A stretch of 64,000 bases of DNA from Thermococcus profundus (GTDB lineage Archaea; Methanobacteriota_B; Thermococci; Thermococcales; Thermococcaceae): positions 930,001 to 994,000 of the forward strand of contig NZ_CP014862.1 of assembly GCF_002214585.1 (NCBI RefSeq), read 5' to 3'. Positions 48,474 through 50,180 of the stretch are shown here, piece by piece (position 1 is the first letter of the stretch; each line of letters begins with the position of its first letter). The notes beneath the pieces were generated by a model. The model made no database searches. It was not told where the DNA came from and saw only the letters and a list, made by a program, of their open reading frames with translations. A program made the position numbers and the translations under genes.

Positions 48474-49502
48474 TCACTCCTCTCCAAAGATCAGGTCGAC
48501 GAACCACTTCTCGTCGAAGGGCCTCAGGTCGTCGTAGCCCTGACCAACGCCCACGAAGAGAATTGGAGCGCCTATCGCGTGGCTTATGCTCAAAGCTGCT
48601 CCTCCCCTTGCATCGGCATCTAGCTTGGTGAGTATGACCCCGTCTATCCTAACCGCCTCGTTGAACTGCCTGGCCTGCTCTATTATCGAGTTGCCCGCCA
48701 GGGAATCCCCGACGAAGACGACAAGATCGGGCTTGGTGACGCGGACGATCTTCTTCATCTCGTCCATGAGGTTTCTGTTCAGCTCGTTCCTACCTGCGGT
48801 ATCGACGAGCACCACATCGATCCCCCTGGCCTTGGCGTGCTGGATGGCGTCGTAGGCGACTGCCGCTGGGTCGGCCCCGTAGGAGTGCTTTATCACCTTA
48901 ACGCCAACGTTCTTCGCGTGCTGTTCCACCTGCTCTATCGCCCCCGCACGGAAGGTGTCGCTGGCCGCTATGACAACGCCCAGACCGTTCTTCTTGAGCC
49001 AGTGGGCAAGCTTGGCTATGGTGGTCGTCTTCCCGGAGCCGTTGAAGCCGACGAAGACTATCACGTAGGGCTTTTCTCCCTTCTTTTTGATCTCCTCCAG
49101 AAGGTCGATCCTCTTCGGTGGAGTTAGGACTTCAAGAACGGCCTCCTTAACGGCCCCCTCGATGATCTTGCCCTTGTCTGTTCCGATTCTAACCTTCCTC
49201 CCCACGAGCTTCCTCTTTATGCTCTCCCTCAGCTCGTCAACGACTTCTAAAGCAACGTCCGCCTCAAGGAGCTCTATCTCCAGATCCTCAAGGGCCCTCT
49301 CCACGTCCTTCTCCTTTATCTCAACCTGGAGGAGCTTTCCAAGAAAACCTGGTTTTTTCTCTTCCTTTGCGGAAACCTCTTCTTTCTTCTCAGCTTCAGC
49401 GGGCTTTGTTCCTACCTCAGGAAGCTTCTTCTCTTCTTCCTCAACCTTCTCCTCGACCTGCTTTGTGAACTTCTTAAGCTTCTCCCTGAGCTTCCCGAAC
49501 AT
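48474..49502 (-). CDS. ftsY: FtsY signal recognition particle receptor GTPase
   Basis: FtsY docks SRP-ribosome complexes at the membrane. The 342-residue protein has a charged Lys/Glu-rich amphipathic A region (1-60) and the NG domain: helical N part, G1 [13 protein letters not shown] (about residue 153), G3 DTAGR near 238, the DARGGA motif near 303 with TKLDAD, and the C-terminal [10 protein letters not shown]. The ATG at 49502 follows GGTGGTGAG, and the minus-strand TATA CATATATAGG lies at about 49532-49541, so its message begins only a few bases upstream. A C/D box RNA is encoded just before that promoter. Confidence 0.96.
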
Positions 49503-49531
49503 TCTCACCACCGCTCACCGGGCAACTTATT

Positions 49532-49550: not shown

Positions 49551-49607
49551 CGCCTCAGCGATAGCTGGTGTCATCACAGCTCAGACCCGAAGCCACACAT
49601 CATCGGC
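49551..49607 (-). ncRNA. C/D box guide sRNA with double guide (2'-O-methylation guide)
   Basis: Read on the minus strand, the boxes are C ATGATGT (49603-49597), D' CTGA (49584-49581), C' GTGATGA (49577-49571) and D CTGA (49558-49555). Both guides are exactly 12 bases and the D'-C' spacer is 3, the canonical archaeal architecture. C and D flank a weak CCG/GGC stem. Guide sequences are GTGGCTTCGGGT (D' guide) and CACCAGCTATCG (D guide); the D guide complements CGAUAGCUGGUG, close to a conserved 23S rRNA helix segment. Box C overlaps the stop codon of the upstream gene at 49600. Only box C differs from consensus at its last base. Such RNAs direct fibrillarin through L7Ae and Nop5. Confidence 0.85.
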
Positions 49608-50061
49608 CTTTCCTAACAAGTTTCGAGGACTCAACCACCTCACCGTTCTCGAGCTTATATAGGTTGACCACTTCGGTGTCAACGGTTTCACGCCTGTAGG
49701 CCACGAGGTAATCGACGAAAAACCGTATCCTGTACCGGCTTATCGAATCGCCAATGTACTTGCCCTCGTAGAGGAGAACAAGCTTATCCCGATTCGACTC
49801 AAGCCATGAGTAGAGCTTTTCCTGGGCGGTTTTCGATCTAGAGAGGGGATTCACGATGAGGTAGGCGTCAAAGCCCGGATTTTCCAGGGGATCCCCTATG
49901 AAAACCTCTCCTTCAACTTGGAATGGCAGGCTCTCGGCCAGTATTTTCCACCCTTCTCTTCCCCACTCGTTCAGGAATATCCTCGCGAGCCTCTTGGCGT
50001 TTCCCGTCATCATTATTCTCCCTGATTTGAGGTAAACTAGGTCTGTCAGTTTCAGCGGCAC
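49600..50061 (-). CDS. Protein of unknown function
   Basis: The 153-residue soluble protein has alternating helices and strands, including RIFLNEWGREGWKILAES and YLVAYRRETVDTEVVNLY near residue 120 (parts of longer segments), with no recognised catalytic motif, signal peptide or membrane helix. Starts at GTG codons 50067 and 50061 are possible; the latter is preferred because GAGGGGGTG precedes it at normal spacing. The TTTAAAAC on the minus strand near 50087-50094 is the probable TATA box. Its stop codon lies in box C of the C/D RNA. Not recognised, though the frame and base use look like a real gene. Confidence 0.7.
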   Translation of the reverse strand: MPLKLTDLVYLKSGRIMMTGNAKRLARIFLNEWGREGWKILAESLPFQVEGEVFIGDPLENPGFDAYLIVNPLSRSKTAQEKLYSWLESNRDKLVLLYEGKYIGDSISRYRIRFFVDYLVAYRRETVDTEVVNLYKLENGEVVESSKLVRKGR

Positions 50062-50180
50062 TCCCACACCCCCTCACAAATCGGAGTTTTAAACTATTAA
50101 CGGGCGGGAATTCAAAAGTTTTTCGTCAGAATTTCTATGTATGGCAACAACTTTCATTTACGAACTCGACAAACCGCAAA

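Follow-up and report, generated by a model that had tools for sequence, protein, structure and literature searches.

C/D box methylation guide RNAs of the sR28 family are already catalogued in Rfam (RF01136), and the representative of this family in Thermococcus kodakarensis has been seen by RNA sequencing under another name: PMC9014305 lists it as sR20 (Tko-sR20) at 558818-558879, with a predicted length of 62 nt, 1,622 small-RNA reads, and 21 circular reads in the wild type against 0 in an RNA ligase knockout. The RNA called "sR28" in that paper is a different one, as its numbering differs from that of Rfam, and the paper also gives a transcription start for sR20 at 558914, taken from a primary transcriptome study. 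Both expression and circularity of the ortholog in T. kodakarensis are therefore established in the literature. Overlap of such RNAs with protein-coding genes is well described; PMC7994747, citing Tripp et al. 2017, puts at about 25% the share of archaeal C/D sRNA genes that run over the 3' end of a gene and include its stop codon, which in almost half of those cases lies in box C. In yeast, ribose methylation of 25S Gm805 is on record (PMC5199042).

The DNA analyzed here, hereafter the window, comprises 64,000 nucleotides of a 2.04-Mb Thermococcales genome, and its minus strand from 49607 to 49551 is an archaeal C/D box methylation guide RNA belonging to Rfam sR28. The RF01136 model was covered in full (positions 1 to 55 of 55) by a match at 49607-49553 that scored 63.8 bits against a gathering score of 39 (E value of 4.4e-14), and the other models sR12 (31.7 bits), sR10 (25.4 bits), sR1 (25.2 bits), sR5 (22.9 bits) and snoPyro_CD (30.3 bits) all remained below their gathering scores. 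Read along the minus strand, the locus runs GCCG-ATGATGT-GTGGCTTCGGGT-CTGA-GCT-GTGATGA-CACCAGCTATCG-CTGA-GGCG: box C at 49597-49603, the D' guide GTGGCTTCGGGT at 49585-49596, box D' (CTGA) at 49581-49584, the D'-C' spacer (GCT) at 49578-49580, box C' (GTGATGA) at 49571-49577, the D guide CACCAGCTATCG at 49559-49570 and box D (CTGA) at 49555-49558, enclosed by a terminal stem of three pairs next to the C/D k-turn, the 5' strand of which (49605-49607) pairs with the 3' strand at 49552-49554. A preliminary description, made by unaided reading of the sequence, had claimed four minus-strand boxes with ideal spacing; the boxes are present in the order C, D', C', D (RUGAUGA/CUGA), and the 12/3/12 arrangement of guide, spacer and guide stands, with the guide lengths and short D'-C' spacer of archaeal C/D box sRNAs, but box C (ATGATGT) ends in a T and so departs from RUGAUGA at one base, a variant common to three relatives. 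RF01136 also has a weak second match in the same genome (1722983-1723034; 22 bits), but this belongs to another C/D RNA, whose guides differ. The window holds no tRNA genes.

Since CTGA and TGATGA are short words, an arrangement of this kind could in principle arise by chance. Scanning of both strands with relaxed spacing found the architecture once in the window and in none of 200 Markov-randomized 64-kb sequences that kept the size and dinucleotide makeup of the window, and loosening the criteria further revealed no second site in the window; together with an Rfam E value of 4e-14 and conservation across five genera, this makes the probability of a fortuitous assembly of box-like words negligible.

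RF01136 exceeded its cutoff in 78 of 94 Thermococcales genomes and reached an E value of ≤0.001 in 89 of 94, with the weak matches including other C/D RNAs. The 70 sR28 loci extracted came from five genera and comprised 66 distinct sequences. Conservation of the boxes in related genomes had been named in the preliminary description as a point on which the reading could fail; box C is kept, with variants, in the 70 loci. All 70 loci share the same 11 bases of the D guide, ACCAGCTATCG (the RNA was also located within each locus by this word, at the cost of no locus), and the twelfth guide base, mostly unpaired, drifts freely among C, A, T and G. In the terminal stem, pair 1 is C-G or G-C in all 66 distinct sequences, and pairs 2 and 3 are formed in 62 and 58 of the 66, with compensatory changes. 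Family membership, conservation, and guide pairing with covariation were all observed in this analysis, and we are all but certain that the locus as a whole is best explained as a double-guide C/D box sRNA directed at two spots in 23S rRNA. The RNA seems to be absent from two near-complete, single-contig Thermococcus genomes (G015 and G034), where both 23S targets are intact and the sole matches to the guide words fall within the 23S gene itself, which suggests that sR28 is not indispensable.

The k-turn of the family shows a pattern of its own. At the pair formed by base 5 of box C and base 2 of box D, the 66 distinct relatives carry T/T in 17 cases, C/C in 37, A/T in 8, C/T in 3 and C/A in 1, and most Thermococcus combine a box C of the form RTGACGA with a box D of CCGA. 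A k-turn in which the U-U usual at this position gives way to a coupled C-C looks uncommon.

The preliminary description had set the D guide against a conserved stretch of 23S rRNA and had named the second A of GAUAG as the methylated base under the D+5 rule, and the genome's own 23S rRNA agrees on both counts. It carries CGATAGCTGGTT at 920-931, of which the first 11 bases (920-930) form consecutive Watson-Crick pairs with the guide, so that 11 of the 12 guide bases are paired and D+5 falls on A924, aligned with Escherichia coli A804. Among the 55 genomes having both the RNA and a 23S fragment, positions 2 to 11 of the D guide are paired in 550 of 550 cells, and A924 is the predicted 2'-O-methylation target. 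The D' guide, whose target had previously been left unplaced, pairs with ACCCGAAGCCG at 23S positions 788 to 798 through 10 Watson-Crick pairs and 1 G-U pair, and the fifth base of this pairing, G792, aligns with E. coli G674. Both guides thus match 23S rRNA at the 9 to 10 pairs or more that had been proposed as a check, with the target bases paired, and the 16S rRNA of the same genome offered weaker guide matches only. Such matches seldom arise at random: only 4 and 27 of 2000 random 12-mers from the window did as well as the D and D' guides, respectively, each taken alone.

Assignment of the D' guide requires a choice between sites. It could mainly serve G706, at the site CCCCGAAGCCGC that begins at 23S position 702, instead of or besides G792; in this genome, positions 2 to 12 of the guide pair there through 10 Watson-Crick pairs and 1 G-U pair, and the duplex energy is -21.9 kcal/mol compared with -20.4 kcal/mol at G792. 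Comparison across the 55 genomes favors G792, with 11 mismatched cells of 550 at positions 2 to 11 as against 31 for the G706 site, and in Pyrococcus the G706 site is mismatched next to the target base, whereas the G792 site is fully paired. The guide also varies with its proposed partner: an A at 23S position 795, as in Pyrococcus and other genera, is matched by a T in the D' guide, and a G there, as in most Thermococcus, is matched by a C in most guides, with a G-U pair in the rest. We consider with good confidence that G792 is the main predicted target of the D' guide and regard a principal role at G706 as improbable. A third site, at 23S position 771, was ruled out because of its many G-U pairs.

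The preliminary description had also placed box C over the TGA of the upstream gene at 49600, and the stop codon at 49602-49600 does lie inside box C. The upstream open reading frame (ORF) (49600-50067, minus strand, running from 50067 to 49600) encodes a 155-amino-acid Thermococcales protein that is conserved in Thermococcus and, by Pfam search, has no Pfam family; a search for related loci with this protein as the query gave no match. Downstream on the same strand lies ftsY (48474-49511), encoding the signal recognition particle receptor GTPase, identified by its SRP54 and SRP54_N Pfam domains. Among relatives with the same upstream gene, the stop codon is the TGA of box C in nine genomes, this one included. 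In five others, box C is ATGACGA and the register is shifted, so that the ORF continues across the first three elements of the RNA (box C, D' guide and box D') and terminates at the TGA within box C'. Most of the remaining relatives have an ORF that ends 11 to 52 nt upstream of the RNA, often with a TATA element approximately 30 nt before the RNA. Overlap of box C with a stop codon is a documented and common arrangement that is variable among relatives. In the five Thermococcus genomes with the shifted register (L039, L052, L025, L028 and L036), the encoded protein ends in ...PMTSGFGSE(R/Q/W)*, so that an RNA gene, through its box C, D' guide and box D', sets the last residues of a protein.

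From the overlap, it had been concluded that the RNA necessarily either derives from a message by processing or is transcribed across one. This is too strong: in T. kodakarensis the start reported in PMC9014305 lies within the upstream ORF, 35 nt ahead of the mature end of the RNA, with a TATAAA in the same ORF approximately 23 bp before it, and an internal promoter followed by trimming is therefore just as likely. In the window, a TATA-like TATATAA at 49655-49661 on the minus strand, within codons of the upstream ORF, is a candidate promoter that would place the start near 49634. The RNA would probably originate from such a promoter inside the end of the ORF, or from read-through mRNA, and would be trimmed to about 57 to 62 nt and partly circularized.

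Overlap with the end of an ORF, together with a position approximately 40 nt ahead of ftsY, might point to a cis-acting k-turn, that is, an L7Ae-binding regulatory site in the 3' end of the upstream mRNA or in the ftsY leader and not a guide RNA, and some predicted snoRNAs near 5' ends have been suggested to be cis-regulatory k-turns (PMC4247193). The guides nevertheless match their 23S targets base for base and are conserved, the RNA has different neighbors in Pyrococcus, ftsY was not found beside it in T. kodakarensis, and a discrete 62-nt RNA is known in that species; a purely regulatory element is accordingly very improbable. The guide RNA identified in the preliminary description is borne out by the Rfam score, by conservation across the order Thermococcales and by the T. 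kodakarensis ortholog seen by RNA-seq.

As a guide RNA, sR28 would assemble L7Ae, Nop5 and fibrillarin on its C/D k-turn and C'/D' k-loop, and fibrillarin would then 2'-O-methylate A924 through the D guide and G792 through the D' guide. The literature searched yielded no methylation positions for this species or its relatives (T. kodakarensis and Pyrococcus furiosus); PMC7758197 notes that its own RiboMeth-seq data, for P. furiosus, have been deposited (GSE153501) and are to be reported elsewhere. The two predicted targets face each other across the root of a single 23S helix, one on either strand. Bases 795-799 (GCCGG) and 916-920 (CCGGC) form this helix, in which E. coli C680-G797 corresponds to G798-C917 in this genome, a double change that keeps the pair; the D' guide spans the 5' strand (788 to 798), the D guide begins at the final base of the 3' strand, and the predicted methyl groups fall three bases ahead of the first pair on one side and four bases beyond it on the other. 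Folding of the target region alone with RNAfold gave a local minimum lacking this comparison-supported helix and was not used.

The guides would thus bind opposite strands at the root of the same helix, and sR28 may also keep both strands in place during rRNA folding. Dennis et al. (PMC4644070) proposed a folding-helper role for sR15 and sR17 of Nanoarchaeum equitans, which have a like layout, and the layout seen here fits such a role without demonstrating it. A more specific proposal, which we advance tentatively and rate as rather unlikely, is that sR28 serves as a clamp during folding where one arm of domain II of 23S rRNA has its root: the guides would grip helix 795-799/916-920 by both of its strands, and one base on either side would be methylated. 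What is conserved would then be the clamp site and not the RNA, as the presence of the same A804 guide in a different crenarchaeal sRNA would suggest.

The family being already known, this copy is an ordinary Thermococcus member, and the preliminary description rightly recognized it, a family member with a homolog already shown to be expressed: raw sequence read without tools sufficed to recover a genuine guide RNA together with one target. Our additions are small, namely, the D' target and the covariation that supports its assignment, the placement of the two targets opposite each other, and the stop codon that moves between box C, box C' and positions outside the RNA. These three parts are new in that they were not found in the open literature searched; Gaspin et al. 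2000 and Tripp et al. 2017 may hold target predictions.

Compared with RF01136, the window copy shares a full-length match, the boxes, the spacing and the D guide; it differs in the final T of box C and in its D' guide, GTGGCTTCGGGT where the consensus of the model is gCGGuUUCGGGa, a departure that follows G795 of the 23S rRNA of this genus. The yeast guide of 25S Gm805, snR39b, is a separate eukaryotic snoRNA that is likened to sR28 by its target site. Gm805 is presumably the G in the ACCCG motif that also holds G792 and E. coli G674. The T. kodakarensis ortholog was located at 558825-558876 of genome G024, within sR20, and the 23S position in that genome agrees with the coordinates printed for T. 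kodakarensis KOD1 in PMC9014305. It shares with the window copy the guides, the upstream gene and the stop codon in box C, and differs in having a box C' of GTGAGGA with a box D' of CCGA and in the gene downstream, where ftsY was not found. In three crenarchaeal metagenome-assembled genome (MAG) contigs (L144, L148 and L156), C/D sRNAs carry the identical 11-nt A804 guide ACCAGCTATCG followed by CTGA, but in the D' place and with another second guide, apparently directed at a part of 23S close by; the same target is thus served by a different RNA.
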